Source: Ascidiaceihabitans donghaensis
GTDB lineage: Bacteria; Pseudomonadota; Alphaproteobacteria; Rhodobacterales; Rhodobacteraceae
Assembly (NCBI RefSeq): GCF_900302465.1
Contig: NZ_OMOR01000001.1
Location: forward strand, 2,604,001-2,668,000
Length of the DNA: 64,000 bases
Direction of reading: 5' to 3'
Under the pieces are notes generated by a model. That model saw only the letters and a program-made list of their open reading frames with translations. It did not search any database and had not been told where the DNA came from. The position numbers and the translations under genes are program-made. The first letter of the stretch is position 1. The number at the start of each line of letters is the position of its first letter. This document shows, one piece after another, positions 47,224 through 53,961 of the stretch.

Positions 47224-49170
47224 ATGGCATCAGTCTCTCTTACCTTTCCCGACGGCAATGCACGCGACTATGACGCAGGGGTCACCCCCGCGCAGGTTGC
47301 CGAGAGCATTTCCAAATCATTGGCCAAAAAGGCAATCAGCGCGACCGTGAACGGTGCACATCATGACCTGCAATGGCCCATCGACGCCGACGCCTCCATC
47401 GCCCTGCACACCATGGCCGACGAAGATCAAGCCAACGAACTGGTCCGCCACGATCTGGCCCACATCATGGCCCGTGCGGTGCAGGAAATCTGGCCCGACA
47501 CAAAGGTCACCATCGGCCCTGTCATCAAAGACGGCTGGTACTATGACTTCGACCGCAAGGACCCGTTCACACCCGAAGATCTTTTGACCATCGAAAAGAA
47601 GATGAAAGAGATCATCAACAAACGCGAACCCGTGCGCACCGAAGTCTGGGACCGCGACCGCGCGGTGCAGTTCTACAAAGACAACAACGAGCCCTATAAA
47701 GTTGAACTGATCGACGCCATTCCGGGCGATGAGCCGCTGCGCATGTACTGGCACGGCGACTGGCAGGACCTGTGCCGTGGTCCGCACCTGCAACACACAG
47801 GCCAAGTGCCGGGTGACGCGTTCAAGCTGATGTCCATCGCAGGTGCCTATTGGCGTGGCGACAGTGACCGCGAAATGCTGCAACGCATCTACGGCGTGGC
47901 CTTCACCGGCAAGGAAAAACTGAAAGCCCACCTGCACATGCTGGAAGAGGCCGCCAAACGCGACCACCGCAAGCTGGGCCGTGAAATGGACCTGTTCCAC
48001 ATGCAGGAAGAGGCGCCGGGCCAGATTTTCTGGCACGCCAACGGCTGGCTGATCTACACCCAATTGCAAGACTTCATGCGTCGCAAACAACGCGCGGGCG
48101 GTTATGTTGAGGTAAACACACCGCAGGTCGTGGACCGCAAGCTGTGGGAAGCGTCAGGCCACTGGGAGAAATACCAGGAAAACATGTTCATCGTCGAAGT
48201 CGACGAAGATCATGCGCGCGAAAAGGCTGTGAACGCCCTGAAACCCATGAACTGCCCCTGCCATGTGCAAATCTTTAATCAGGGCCTCAAATCCTACCGC
48301 GATCTGCCCCTGCGGATGGCCGAATTTGGATCGTGCAACCGCTATGAACCCTCGGGCGCTTTGCACGGCATCATGCGCGTGCGCGGGTTTACCCAAGACG
48401 ATGGGCATATTTTCTGCCGCGAAGACCAGATTGAATCGGAAACCGCCGTCTACATCGAATTTCTAACCTCGATCTACAAAGACCTTGGGTTCGAAAACTT
48501 CCGCGTGAAATTCTCGGACCGTCCCGAAACACGCTCTGGCAGCGACGAGGTTTGGGACAAAGCCGAACAAGCGCTTTTGGCGGCCACACGCGCCGCCGGG
48601 ATCGAACCCGAAATGAACCCCGGCGAAGGAGCGTTCTACGGGCCCAAACTGGAGTTTGTCTTGACCGACGCCATCGGGCGCGACTGGCAATGTGGCACAC
48701 ACCAAGTCGATTTCGTGCTGCCGGAACGTTTGGACGCGACCTATGTGGGCTCAGACGGCGACAAACACCGCCCTGTCATGTTGCACCGCGCAACGTTGGG
48801 CAGCTTTGAACGTTTCATCGGCATCTTGATCGAAGAACACGCCGGCAAGTTGCCATTTTGGTTGGCTCCGCGTCAGGTGGTTGTGGCCTCCATCATTTCG
48901 GACGCCGATGACTACGTGCATGATGTGGTTGCACAACTGAAAGCCGCAGGCGTGCGCGCGGAAGCCGACATTCGCAACGAAAAGATCAACTACAAGGTGC
49001 GCGAGCACTCCGTGGGCAAAGTCCCGGTTATCTTGGCCGTCGGTGCGCGCGAAGTTGAAGAACGCACTGTCACAGTACGCCGCCTTGGCGAAAAACAGAC
49101 ACGCGTCGAAGCGTTGGACGCTGTAACAAAAACGTTGCAGGCCGATGCAACGCCGCCTGACTTGCGCTGA
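47224..49170 (+). CDS. thrS: Threonyl-tRNA synthetase
   Basis: 648 residues, full length. It charges tRNA-Thr. The TGS domain is at about 1-62 ('[20 protein letters not shown]'), the editing domain at 65-225 (starts '[12 protein letters not shown]'), and the class II catalytic core has '[20 protein letters not shown]', '[10 protein letters not shown]' with the zinc-binding Cys, '[19 protein letters not shown]' and '[19 protein letters not shown]'. The anticodon-binding domain follows ('PRQVVVASI'). The cognate tRNA-Thr(TGT) gene lies about 3.7 kb downstream on the opposite strand. Confidence 0.97.
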
Positions 49171-49181
49171 AATATTACAAG

Positions 49182-49206
49182 GTCGGGCGGATCAACCCTG
49201 CCCGAC
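49182..49206 (+). terminator. Hairpin after thrS
   Basis: GTCGGGC (49182-49188) pairs with GCCCGAC (49200-49206), flanked by TTACA and TGTAA that extend the symmetry. The following sequence is only weakly T-rich. It separates thrS from the bufferin-type locus. Confidence 0.6.
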
Positions 49207-49365
49207 TGTAACATTTCATCACGAAACACCTGTTTTATGGGTGGAAAAAAGTCCATTCCCTGACGCGCATGTGACACACAGGCTCGTGAATGGTAATATC
49301 GCCTGCATACATCCAGACTGATCTTCACAAGTTCAGTTTAAACCTGCCCTAGAAGGACGTAAAAC

Positions 49366-49671
49366 ATGTCAAACACAATGAAATCTGTAGCCCTCGCGTC
49401 TGCTGTTGCCGCTGCAATGACAGCTGCCACCACAACAACAACACACGCTGCTTCCAAAGAAAAATGCTACGGCGTTTCCTTGGCTGGCGAAAATGATTGC
49501 GCCGCAGGTGCTGGCACGACATGCGCCGGAACCTCTACAGTGGATTATCAAGGTAACGCATGGACACTTGTCGACGCAGGCACATGTGCAGAAATCGAAT
49601 TGCCTGCACAAGCAGACGGCTCCGCCCGTGAAGGGTCGCTGAAAGAACTGTCACGCGACATTCCTGCGTAA
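49366..49671 (+). CDS. bufA: Bufferin-type metallophore precursor (DUF2282)
   Basis: 101 residues. A signal peptide (residues 1-29, Ala/Thr-rich with '[12 protein letters not shown]') directs export. The mature peptide has exactly four Cys at 34, 45, 53 and 74 in '[13 protein letters not shown]', '[10 protein letters not shown]' and 'VDAGTCAE', matching the DUF2282 bufferin family. In characterised bufferins of Caulobacter, Cys residues are converted to thiooxazoles by the MNIO enzyme and the product binds copper in the periplasm. The enzyme genes follow directly, separated by a 13-base hairpin. Modification pattern and metal are inferred from family knowledge. Confidence 0.9.
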
Positions 49672-49690
49672 TTTTCTGACCGGACGGTTT

Positions 49691-49720
49691 TGGTTTGGGC
49701 GTTCAACAACGCCCAAACCA
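49691..49720 (+). terminator. Thirteen-base hairpin between bufA and bufB (attenuator or mRNA-processing stem)
   Basis: TGGTTTGGGCGTT (49691-49703) and AACGCCCAAACCA (49708-49720) form a perfect 13-base stem around a CAAC loop. It is not followed by a U-tract, so full termination is unlikely. In operons of this sort such a stem often keeps the precursor message stable and abundant relative to the enzyme genes. Confidence 0.6.
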
Positions 49721-49748
49721 CCCAATACGACAGACGAAAGGGCCTGCC

Positions 49749-50609
49749 ATGCTGGACACTTCACCTGCACACCGCCCTTTGCCCGACGCGGTCGGCGTCG
49801 GCTATAAATCCCAACATTTCAGCGACCTGTTGCACGCCCCCGGTCCTGTCCGGTGGTTGGAAATACATGCCGAGAATTACATGGGCGATGGCGGAAGGCC
49901 GTTGGCGCAGCTGCGCCGCCTTGCAGAAACATTTGCAATTTCTGTGCACGGGGTTGGGTTGTCGATCGGCGGCGAAACCCCGTTAGACCCCGACCATCTT
50001 GCCCGTCTTAAACATCTGATTACATGGGCCAATCCTGCAAGTTTTTCGGAACATCTGGCTTGGTCCACCCATGGTGCAGAGTTCATGAACGACCTTTTGC
50101 CCCTTCCCTACACAAACGCCACTCTTGCCCGTGTGGCGGCCCATGTTTCCCAGGTCCAAGACACGCTTGGACGGCAAATGCTGTTGGAAAACCCCTCTAG
50201 CTATTTGGCCTTTGCAGAAAGCACATGGTCCGAAACAGACTTTCTGGCAGAGCTTGCCCAGCGCACCGGCTGCGGGTTGTTACTGGATGTGAACAACGTC
50301 TTTATCTCTGCCACAAACCTTGGGTATTCCCCGCAAAGCTACATCGACGCTTATCCGTTGGCAGCTGTTGGCGAAATCCACGTTGGTGGACACGACGAAG
50401 ACCAAGATGATCACGGCGCCCCGTTGCTGATCGACAGCCACGGATGTGAAGCAGCAGACCCCGTTTGGGATCTATTGGACTATGCGCTGGTAAAAACCGG
50501 CCCCCGCCCTGTGTTGATCGAATGGGACAACGATGTGCCGGATTGGGCGACATTGCGTCTTGAAGCCCAGCGCGGCGCCGATGCATTGGTTCACTTGGCA
50601 GCGCGATGA
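49749..50609 (+). CDS. bufB: MNIO family enzyme BufB (DUF692)
   Basis: 286 residues from the ATG at 49749; a frame extends to 49695 across the hairpin without conservation. DUF692/MNIO enzymes use two or three iron ions in a TIM barrel to convert Cys of a precursor to oxazolone/thioamide or thiooxazole. Candidate metal ligands in order: 'EIHAENY', 'SVHGVGLSIG', 'FSEHLAWSTHG', 'LLENPSSYL', 'LLDVNNVF', 'GEIHVGGHDED', 'DSHG' and 'LIEWDND'. The close MbnB relative of methanobactin clusters has the same fold, but the DUF2282 precursor and DUF2063 partner point to bufferin. Confidence 0.92.
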   Translation: MLDTSPAHRPLPDAVGVGYKSQHFSDLLHAPGPVRWLEIHAENYMGDGGRPLAQLRRLAETFAISVHGVGLSIGGETPLDPDHLARLKHLITWANPASFSEHLAWSTHGAEFMNDLLPLPYTNATLARVAAHVSQVQDTLGRQMLLENPSSYLAFAESTWSETDFLAELAQRTGCGLLLDVNNVFISATNLGYSPQSYIDAYPLAAVGEIHVGGHDEDQDDHGAPLLIDSHGCEAADPVWDLLDYALVKTGPRPVLIEWDNDVPDWATLRLEAQRGADALVHLAAR

Positions 50610-51373
50610 CGGGCCATCCTTCCACCACGCTGTCTACCTTTCGCAGCGCACTACTGGATGGCGCGGCCCCCGTGCCGGACAACGTGCAAGACGGCGCAGG
50701 CGCCCCCGCCGGTCGTCGATACGATGTGTACCGCAACAACGTGTCTGTGGCGTTGCGCGATGCGCTGCGCGCCAGCTTTCCGGTCCTTGTCAAATTGATT
50801 GGCGACCAGAACTTTGACATGTTGGCGGGACTATTTTTAAGGTCCCACCCTCCGTCCTCGCCTTTGATGATGTTCTATGGCGGGCAAATGCCTGATTTTC
50901 TGGATGGCTTCGCACCACTTGCCCATATCGGTTATCTTCCGGATGTGGCCCGTCTGGAAATCGCAATCCGCGAAAGTTATCATGCGGCAGACAGCACTGC
51001 CATGAATCCCGGCCGCTTTGCCGAGGTGCCCGCAGAGGCGCTGAACGACGCGACTTTGCTGCTTGCACCGCATTTGCGGGTGATACCGTCCGAATGGCCC
51101 CTGCATGACATCTGGCGCTTCAACATGGTAAGCGGCGCGGAAAAACCGCGCAATATTGCACAATCGGTTTTGATTTTGCGACGCGAATTTGACCCCGAAC
51201 CCCATGCCATAACAGCTGCAGACACGGCGTGGCTCAGTATCACAGCCAAAGGGGGATCAATGGGGGATGCCCAAGACGCAGCCGCCGCTGTTTCGCCTGA
51301 CTACGATCTTGGCCCGCTTCTGACGCTGCTTATCCAGAACAACGCATTGACTGATTTGACCACAAAGGACTGA
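50606..51373 (+). CDS. bufC: BufC partner protein (DUF2063 family)
   Basis: 255 residues, overlapping bufB by four bases (ATGA). The N-terminal DUF2063 domain starts 'STFRSALLDGAAPVPDNV' and 'RYDVYRNNVSVALRDALR', with 'FPVLVKLIGDQNFDMLAGLF' and 'GYLPDVARLEIAIRESYHA'. In bufferin and related MNIO clusters this protein binds the precursor and forms a complex with the MNIO enzyme. The C-terminal half (about 150-255) is probably the recognition or winged-helix-like module. Annotations of the family as DNA-binding are likely to be misleading here. Confidence 0.88.
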   Translation: MTGHPSTTLSTFRSALLDGAAPVPDNVQDGAGAPAGRRYDVYRNNVSVALRDALRASFPVLVKLIGDQNFDMLAGLFLRSHPPSSPLMMFYGGQMPDFLDGFAPLAHIGYLPDVARLEIAIRESYHAADSTAMNPGRFAEVPAEALNDATLLLAPHLRVIPSEWPLHDIWRFNMVSGAEKPRNIAQSVLILRREFDPEPHAITAADTAWLSITAKGGSMGDAQDAAAAVSPDYDLGPLLTLLIQNNALTDLTTKD

Positions 51374-51377
51374 ACTG

Positions 51378-51917
51378 ATGAAAAAGCTGCACACTGCCAT
51401 TTTTGGCGCGATCGAACGCAACGACTGGATTTTGCCCACACTGGCACGGATCGTGTTTGCAGGTGTTTTGTTTTCCTATTTTTGGGTCTCGGCAAAAACC
51501 AAACTGGGCGATGGGATTATGGGCATTTTCCAACTGTCCGACAGCGCCTATATCCAGATCTTCCCCAAGGCGGTTGAAGCCGTGGGCTATGACACAAGCC
51601 AATTGGGCATTTTGCACTATCTGATTGCTTTGGGCGGCACTTGGGCAGAGTTTATTCTGCCGGTCCTGATTGTCGTCGGGCTTTTGACGCGTTTGTCTGC
51701 CCTTGGCATGATCGGCTTCGTTGCTGTGCAATCCATCGTGGATGTCACAGGTCATGGCGTGGGCGGCAAAGACCTTGGCGCGTGGTTCGACAAGGCGTCT
51801 GGTGCATTGATTGCCGACCAACGCGCATTGTGGGTTCTGTTGCTTTTGATATTGGTGATCAAAGGGGCGGGCCCGCTGTCATTTGACCGTGCTTTACAGC
51901 CGCGCTCAGAGACCTAA
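51378..51917 (+). CDS. DoxX family membrane protein (BufD-like)
   Basis: 179 residues with about four helices; 'LARIVFAGVLFSYFWVSAKT', 'GGTWAEFILPVLIVVGLLTR' and 'LSALGMIGFVAVQSIVDVTG' are DoxX-family features. It starts four bases after the bufC stop. DoxX proteins accompany many bufferin clusters, and may handle quinone redox or assist oxidative modification at the membrane, although its exact role is not established. The end overlaps the convergent ArsC-like gene by 12 bases. Confidence 0.85.
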   Translation: MKKLHTAIFGAIERNDWILPTLARIVFAGVLFSYFWVSAKTKLGDGIMGIFQLSDSAYIQIFPKAVEAVGYDTSQLGILHYLIALGGTWAEFILPVLIVVGLLTRLSALGMIGFVAVQSIVDVTGHGVGGKDLGAWFDKASGALIADQRALWVLLLLILVIKGAGPLSFDRALQPRSET

Positions 51918-52220
51918 AGCGGCTTGCGTGTCTTTGGTCCAACCAAGATAAAGCGCGTCGCCCGTATCTATCAGCGGGCGCTTCATCAAAGCAGGGTGTG
52001 CTGCGATCAAATCCAGCGGCGCACCTTCGCGGTCTTTATCAGACAGGCCCCGCCAAGTCGTCGACCGCGTGTTCAACAAAGCCTCTTCAAACTGTTGAAA
52101 AGCACGTTCCAATACGTCTTTGGGCATACCATCCGCACGCACATCTACCAATTCCAAAGCAGGCAAAGCCTTTAAGGCTTTGCGGCAGGTATCGCAGTTC
52201 TTCAATCCGTACAGTTTCAT
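51906..52220 (-). CDS. ArsC/Spx-family (YffB-like) reductase-fold protein
   Basis: 104 residues from the ATG at 52220. The redox site is 'YGLKNCDTCRKALKAL', a CxxC variant with a downstream Arg ('TRSTTWRGLSD') as in ArsC-like proteins, and 'MKRPLIDTG' near the C-terminus. It is closer to the YffB/ArsC-like branch than to true arsenate reductase. Its 3' end overlaps the DoxX gene by 12 bases, so expression is independent. Confidence 0.88.
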   Translation of the reverse strand: MKLYGLKNCDTCRKALKALPALELVDVRADGMPKDVLERAFQQFEEALLNTRSTTWRGLSDKDREGAPLDLIAAHPALMKRPLIDTGDALYLGWTKDTQAALGL

Positions 52221-52409
52221 TTCGTGCCTCTCGGTCAGGGATGCGCTTTTGGTATACAAAAGAATACCAAGTCGTTTCCTTGATTTAGTTGGTTATCGGA
52301 CAATCTTGTTATCCGTGGGTGATTTTTTGGCAAGGCGAATTGTTCGAAACGCCCACAGGAATGGCTCTGTACTTTCAGAGTGGGCGTAAAGGTAAAAGGA
52401 GGCACGGAC

Positions 52410-53085: not shown

Positions 53086-53961
53086 ATGCAACTGGTTCTT
53101 CACACAGGCGCGCACTTCACCGAAGAAGAACGGCTCATGAAGTGTTTGTTGCGCAACACAAGCATGTTGTCGAAAAAAGGCGTCGTTGTCCCTGGTCCAA
53201 GCAGATACCGCAAATTGCTGAAAGAAATTCTGAATGCTTTGCAAACAGCACCCGCCTCGGATGCAGCAAGGGACGTGGTTCTTGACGCAATTCTGGACGA
53301 TGAAACGGCTGACCGGGTTGTTCTAAGCCATCCCTTTATTTTCGGAGCGCCGCGTGCATCTGTGTCTCGTGGGATGATTTTCCACACAGCGCCTGAACGG
53401 ATGCGGCATTTTTGCGATCTGTTTCCACACGATGACATCGAAATGTTCATAGCGATTCGCAATCCGGCAACATTGCTGCCTGCGCTGTTACAACATTCGC
53501 CGAAAGATGACATGGCCGGCTTCATCGGCGGGACCGATCCGCGCATGGTGCGTTGGTCGGAGACATTGAAAGCCATTCGCGAAGCGGCTCCACGCCTTTC
53601 TATCACTGTTTGGTGCAATGAAGACGCGCCTTTGATTTGGTCACAGATCATTCGCGATATGTCAGGTCTTGAGCACGGTGAAAAAATCACGGGCGGTTTC
53701 GATTTACTCAGCAGCATCATGAGCGATGAGGGCATGAAGCGTTTTCGAACCTACCTAAAAACCCACAAGGGCATGTCAGAAATGCAAAAACGCCGTGTCA
53801 TAGCGGCGTTTTTGGATAAATTCGCTTTGGAAGACGAGATCGAAGAAGAACTGGACGTCTACGGTTGGACAGAAGCCCTGATAGACGAGATGAGCGACAT
53901 CTACGACGAAGACGTTTTGGAAATTCAGCGCATTCCAGGCGTTACTATGATAACGCCCTGA
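53086..53961 (+). CDS. Sulfotransferase-like hypothetical protein
   Basis: 291 residues. The start 'MQLVLHTGAHFTEEERLMKC' resembles the P-loop region of sulfotransferases and similar kinases ('HIGAHKTGTT'), with the phosphate-binding residues replaced by Glu. 'FIAIRNPATLLPALL' resembles the Arg-rich PAPS 3'-phosphate segment. The body is helical, and the C-terminus is acidic ('LEDEIEEELDVYGWTEAL'). With both binding segments degenerate, activity as a PAPS-dependent sulfotransferase is doubtful. The gene stands alone downstream of tRNA-Thr. Confidence 0.65.
   Translation: MQLVLHTGAHFTEEERLMKCLLRNTSMLSKKGVVVPGPSRYRKLLKEILNALQTAPASDAARDVVLDAILDDETADRVVLSHPFIFGAPRASVSRGMIFHTAPERMRHFCDLFPHDDIEMFIAIRNPATLLPALLQHSPKDDMAGFIGGTDPRMVRWSETLKAIREAAPRLSITVWCNEDAPLIWSQIIRDMSGLEHGEKITGGFDLLSSIMSDEGMKRFRTYLKTHKGMSEMQKRRVIAAFLDKFALEDEIEEELDVYGWTEALIDEMSDIYDEDVLEIQRIPGVTMITP

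Follow-up and report, generated by a model that had tools for sequence, protein, structure and literature searches.

Does the tight array of four genes at positions 49366-51917 of the window, by which we mean the whole 64,000-nucleotide stretch of Ascidiaceihabitans donghaensis DNA that was analysed, encode a complete copper bufferin system, and how is it controlled? A sequence-only reading had proposed such a system, consisting of a precursor, an MNIO enzyme, its partner and a DoxX protein. Here we present comparisons which make it probable, on the strength of sequence, that this is a Buf1 copper-bufferin operon in which a putative regulator acting at a palindrome would replace sigma-F/NrsF and a stem-loop would favour the precursor over the enzyme. 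The genes and their upstream neighbour are as follows.

47224-49170, + strand: thrS, threonyl-tRNA synthetase (TIGR00418, 663 bits), a neighbour outside the operon
49181-49207, + strand: stem-loop after thrS, a hairpin of -17.6 kcal/mol
49366-49671, + strand: bufA, DUF2282 (Buf1) precursor of 101 residues (PF10048, 85 bits, cut-off 22.4)
49749-50609, + strand: bufB, MNIO enzyme of 286 residues from ATG 49749 (PF05114, 337.4 bits, cut-off 25)
50606-51373, + strand: bufC, MNIO partner with DUF2063 and an RRE-like domain (PF09836, 76.9 bits, cut-off 27.2)
51378-51917, + strand: bufD, DoxX-family membrane protein (PF07681, 25.3 bits, cut-off 23.6)

The four genes are all encoded on the + strand and belong to the families that had been named, and their order, DUF2282-DUF692-DUF2063-DoxX, is as claimed that of Caulobacter CC3254-CC3257 in the available part of the source (PMC3511200). 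Also, the profile comparison places the 101-residue protein inside DUF2282. The stop of bufB and the start of bufC overlap by four bases (50606-50609) and another four (51374-51377) separate the bufC stop from the bufD start; the sequence-only reading had reported the overlap and the four-base spacing before the DoxX gene. The DoxX match of bufD is weak, barely over its cut-off, and the NCBIfam HvfX score of 28.9 bits lies under the cut-off of 80. The longest bufB frame begins at TTG 49695, within the bufA-bufB stem-loop described below; because of this, and because GAAAGGG (49736-49742) stands six bases ahead of ATG 49749, the ATG is probably the true start, which makes the bufA-bufB gap 77 bases. 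The stem-loop after thrS is probably the thrS terminator. The gene itself precedes the operon, in the same orientation, in 59 of 95 family loci and in 78 of 80 named relatives. On the other side, a convergent gene of the ArsC/Spx family (51906-52259, - strand) and bufD share about 12 bases at their ends, and a 291-residue reading frame at 53086-53961 has no Pfam match at E 0.001.

The four cysteines of BufA are where the sequence-only reading had placed them, at 34, 45, 53 and 74, and are invariant in 34 aligned precursors. By eye, the N-terminus is signal-peptide-like, with Lys6 followed by hydrophobic residues up to about position 21 and THAAS at about residues 26-30. Additionally, the same 34 Roseobacter-group precursors revealed a conserved segment at the other end of the protein, beyond the PF10048 domain.

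49627-49668, + strand: C-terminal tail of BufA, residues 88-101, conserved in 34 precursors

The constancy of this tail comes near that of the cysteine core, with R88, G90, S91, L92, R97, D98 and P100 invariant. In 80 of the 95 family precursors the pattern [RKD]D[LIV]P falls among the final 30 residues, and GSLxxLxRDLPA is absent in this form from the seven out-of-family precursors compared. The tail may be a recognition segment, possibly a follower for BufC. The structure model of BufA (mean pLDDT 50.3, pTM 0.29) is too poor to inform on a disulfide, and a phmmer search with BufA found no solved relative. Precursor genes also occur in other arrangements: one locus (L016, genome G018) has a tandem pair of bufA copies upstream of bufB, and at two others (L162, L167) the DUF2282 gene lacks an MNIO gene directly downstream and is followed by a strong hairpin.

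BufB scored 364 bits against the NCBIfam model NF050167 MNIO_BufB, over the equivalog cut-off of 310. The HvfA/HvfB oxazolin system was not supported as an alternative, since the score of 227.6 bits against NF003818, the HvfB (oxazolin) maturase, did not reach the cut-off of 360. BufB matches 3bww (E = 2.2e-44), and its residues H102, E147, D180, N183, H211, D229, H231 and E258 align with 3bww, TglH and MbnB. These eight residues, which we take to be ligand-like and of the iron-binding type, are invariant in 100 BufB sequences; the sequence-only reading had noticed a full set of candidate His, Asp, Asn and Glu ligands in the enzyme. For BufC, a phmmer search found no solved relative. Its AlphaFold2 model (mean pLDDT 94.7) has as best Foldseek matches in the PDB the MNIO partner TglI (8hci_A, E 1.3e-5; 8hi7_A) and NGO1945 (3dee, E 4.9e-4), the latter being the reference for proteins that combine DUF2063 with an RRE. 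On this model, BufC is predicted to be an MNIO partner composed of a DUF2063 domain and an RRE-like fold. The equivalog-level BufB, the DUF2282 precursor and the TglI/NGO1945-like BufC together substantiate the assignment as a bufferin-type locus.

The best-matching named relatives place the operon in a Roseobacter-group bacterium of the family Rhodobacteraceae. Using profile searches, we found DUF2282 in 215 of 296 family genomes; the genome of A. donghaensis itself has one DUF2282 gene and one MNIO gene. The first comparison comprised 102 loci, of which 95 are in the family and seven from other families. The 95 consist of the top-scoring search set, 12 more from the same search and the best 60 further matches listed, with G338 skipped at a contig edge. 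A second set of 80 named Roseobacter-group loci was fetched by similarity to BufB, and includes Ruegeria, Tateyamaria, Sulfitobacter, Roseovarius and Leisingera; some loci are common to both sets (for example L018/L244 and L020/L190). The order A-B-C-D on one strand was found in 80/80 named relatives and in 62/62 family loci where all four genes were found. A further 31 family loci gave A-B-C only, mostly where the fetched stretch ended ahead of bufD, and two loci at contig ends gave only A-B and only A, respectively. In eight loci (L040, L046, L049, L050, L052, L057, L059 and L063) a bufD match is missing although the fetched stretch reached 3.3 kb or more past bufA; here bufD may have been lost, moved or diverged. 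In the plasmid collection 138 records matched the query in part, at 60-80% identity and in no case over 80% of its length, and the phage collection gave no match. Taken as a gene cluster, the locus is an ordinary Buf1-type bufferin locus, of a widespread and well-described class.

What merits follow-up is the control of the locus, beginning with the bufA-bufB gap.

49691-49720, + strand: stem-loop of 13 base pairs with a loop of 4, between bufA and bufB

The stem-loop is present and conserved across the family. In 94 family loci, the 70 bases after the bufA stop had a mean folding z-score of -2.39, with 57 loci below -2, and four control regions had means of -0.20, 0.00, 0.01 and -0.16; a 5'UTR control gave -1.03, somewhat better folding than shuffles. 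A single hairpin of -15 kcal/mol or lower followed bufA in 91/95 family loci vs 17/94 coding controls, and in 78/80 named relatives vs 16/80 controls. Four family loci lack it: L032, which is of the same genus and has only 8 bases between the genes, L049, L076, which lies at a contig end, and L078. Among 16 loci of other families with an MNIO gene adjoining bufA, six have gaps below 20 bases, and only two of the remaining ten have a hairpin of this strength. Hairpins as such are not rare, since five of the 16 other co-directional gaps of the window hold one of -15 kcal/mol or lower; the stem-loop stands out by its constancy at the bufA-bufB position.

It is the structure and not the sequence that is kept: 78 distinct stem sequences were found among the 80 named loci. 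Compensatory changes altered six of nine stem pairs on both sides in 15 stems, which were picked for being in register, a choice that favours complete pairing, and the same stems gave 23 double-sided-change cells vs 7.8 after shuffling and 0 to 3 after sliding. Covariation analysis of 20 stems with MAFFT and RNAalifold found no structure, because stems that lack sequence conservation do not align.

As to function, the conserved stem-loop probably leaves more bufA than bufBCD message, which would suit a stoichiometric metal binder made alongside a catalytic enzyme pair. This excess might instead arise if the stem-loop acted as a leaky intrinsic terminator, past which only some transcripts continue into bufBCD, and not as a stabilizer of the bufA 3' end. 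We regard this as a serious, if doubtful, alternative. At least four T within eight bases follow 28 of the 91 family hairpins, as a terminator would have it, but 34 of the 91 are followed by none or one; here, the eight bases after the stem (CCCAATAC) hold one T. Given these counts, the element is not a textbook terminator, and a device that yields an excess of bufA message is the reading that we prefer.

The predicted chemistry of that binder follows characterised relatives. According to the available part of PMC12452194, Buf1 proteins are DUF2282 precursors in which the two central cysteines are modified and the outer two form a disulfide, and the products of related MNIO enzymes are assigned as 5-thiooxazole and tied to copper in the part of PMC13097082 at hand. 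By analogy, BufBC would oxidise the central Cys 45 and 53 of BufA to thiooxazoles, Cys 34 and 74 may be joined in a disulfide, and the product would be exported by Sec and chelate excess periplasmic copper. It is unlikely, in our estimate, that the operon answers another stress (chromate, cadmium, gold or oxidants) and that copper is, in this lineage, not its chief ligand or signal. Such a role would fit with the way the Caulobacter homologues were first found, as targets of sigma-F in cells exposed to chromium and cadmium, as described in the part of PMC3511200 available, and with a regulator here that differs from that of Caulobacter; however, the bufferins and captophorins that have been characterised bind copper, as far as the accessible parts of PMC12452194 and PMC13097082 go. 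Copper remains the ligand of the reading that we favour.

Control of the operon was approached through the region between thrS and bufA.

49261-49293, + strand: tandem palindrome TGACG-CGCA-TGTGA / ACACA-GGCT-CGTGA, predicted operator upstream of bufA

A Gibbs search of the 59 family loci with thrS upstream returned a motif of 26.9 bits vs 9.0 in shuffled sequence, not convincing in four of the 59. In the 55 aligned sites the motif resolved into a pair of TNACG-N4-CGTNA palindromes whose centres are 15 bases apart; about 26 bases beyond the second of them comes a -10-like signal, which is poor in this window. This spacing would suit an activator, and the palindrome may resemble the CusR/CopR boxes (TGACA-N4-TGTCA). 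A sequence-only operator model, R1, was built from 42 of the 55 sites, and 22 of the 64 loci of the palindrome class defined below lie outside it. In this genome R1 found the buf site at E = 8.2e-6 and the next best at 0.68, making it the sole strong copy found. R1 matched in 76/80 named relatives, always upstream of bufA, and in 61 relatives every match below E = 1e-3 (11 genomes) was the bufA site, with stricter filters applied in R1 searches of more than 40 genomes; 11 weaker matches inspected elsewhere in the relatives overlap or abut long reading frames.

Two candidates for a wider regulon were tried and rejected. Further operator targets were sought with CGTGANNCACRNNNNCGTGANT, which at up to two mismatches occurs in 9 places in the genome vs 9 for a control pattern; the eight near-matches other than the buf site all overlap reading frames. 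Single palindromes of the form TNACGNNNNCGTNA are rarer than their control, at 53 vs 97 per strand.

Transcription probably starts downstream of the tandem palindrome, which a putative dimeric regulator would bind. We think it improbable, even more so than a stress other than copper, that the palindrome is part of an ordinary sigma-70 promoter, GTGACA-N17-TAATAT (49271-49299), that needs no regulator: a consensus scan did report this site, but three such sites were found vs 2.0 expected in shuffles, and across the 55 loci the conserved positions are the palindromes and the -10-like signal about 26 bases on, not TAATAT.

The regulator reading draws further weight from the distribution of promoter types. 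The 95 family loci fell into 64 with the palindrome (P class), 20 with a GTAAC-N16-CGAA-like promoter (F class), 11 with neither and none with both; the lowest P locus scored 12.3 bits for the palindrome and the highest other locus 7.0. The stem-loop is found in each class (62/64 P, 19/20 F and 10/11 unclassed). NrsF scored over its cut-off in 37 of 296 family genomes and was found in 20/20 F-class, 2/62 P-class (L060, L102) and 2/10 unclassed genomes (Fisher p = 3.7e-17, uncorrected for kinship); three loci whose genomes are outside the NrsF survey were left out of this count, and sub-cut-off matches in the P-class genomes G172 and G254 were counted as absent. On a BufB tree of 96 rows, from which five sequences were dropped for stops in the matched stretch and L076 for lack of bufB, the P and F classes need five changes. 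The classes follow the tree in part, so that shared descent explains part of the association and the loci are not independent.

In the A. donghaensis genome NrsF was not found and the best sigma-F match has 24% identity; furthermore, no sigma-F-type promoter lies within 260 bases of bufA. Membership in a sigma-F/NrsF regulon was therefore rejected for this locus. In 16 of the 20 F-class loci a single palindrome stands 4-6 bases upstream of GTAAC; the three F-type loci of other families that were compared lack it. The position of this palindrome suggests that a co-regulator in the family acted before sigma-F was lost and then took over. The putative palindrome regulator would replace sigma-F under its anti-sigma factor NrsF.

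Least probable of the alternatives, and in our view very improbable, is that the bufA 3'UTR gives rise to a small regulatory RNA, with the stem-loop as its 3' end or precursor: Rhodobacter has RNAs of this kind, SorX (from RSP_0847) being the example in the available part of PMC6238624, but the 78 distinct stems in 80 loci and the lack of any Rfam family at the position argue against one. For the reading of a palindrome-bound regulator together with a ratio-setting stem-loop, we put an even chance on its extension to the group, namely that most of the examined Roseobacter-group loci left sigma-F/NrsF for a dedicated, possibly single-target regulator and that a stem-loop free of sequence constraint sets the precursor:enzyme ratio. 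If true, this would be a second, sigma-independent control route for a widespread metal-binding RiPP.

The bufferins are among the largest RiPP groups, and in the literature examined their control has been worked out around sigma-F only. The stem-loop and palindrome around the buf genes may be new to description: a literature search, with most subscription papers outside its reach, found no text joining bufferins and hairpin or DUF2282 and roseobacter, and the words 'promoter' and 'terminator' are absent from the accessible text of PMC12452194. A clean promoter swap within one family would make a metal-sensing regulator, and an excess of substrate over enzyme from one operon, testable ideas, and Ruegeria pomeroyi (locus L237) is a tractable marine strain with the operon.

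Among known systems, the captophorins (fontiphorin, oxazolin and gonophorin; FonABC, HvfABC) also use an MNIO enzyme with a DUF2063/RRE partner on cysteines, as set out in the part of PMC13097082 available; their precursors are EGKCG repeats, whereas the precursor here is a four-Cys DUF2282 protein. The Caulobacter Buf1 operon (bufA1-bufB1-bufC1-doxX) has the same four families in the same order, as far as the material at hand describes it, but is under sigma-F (GTAACC-N16-CGAA) and NrsF control, whereas the tandem palindrome occupies the promoter position here. Rhodobacteraceae loci with a divergent sigma-F gene (for example L003, L008 and L024) carry the operon and, as in 19 of the 20 F-class loci, the stem-loop as here. 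Unlike here, the F-class loci have a sigma-F-type promoter, a genomic NrsF and no second palindrome. Finally, Klug and colleagues reportedly described, in 1987, an intercistronic hairpin in the puf operon of Rhodobacter. In that analogy, where the genes differ, a stem-loop comes after the gene for the product required in the larger amount, as bufA would be here.
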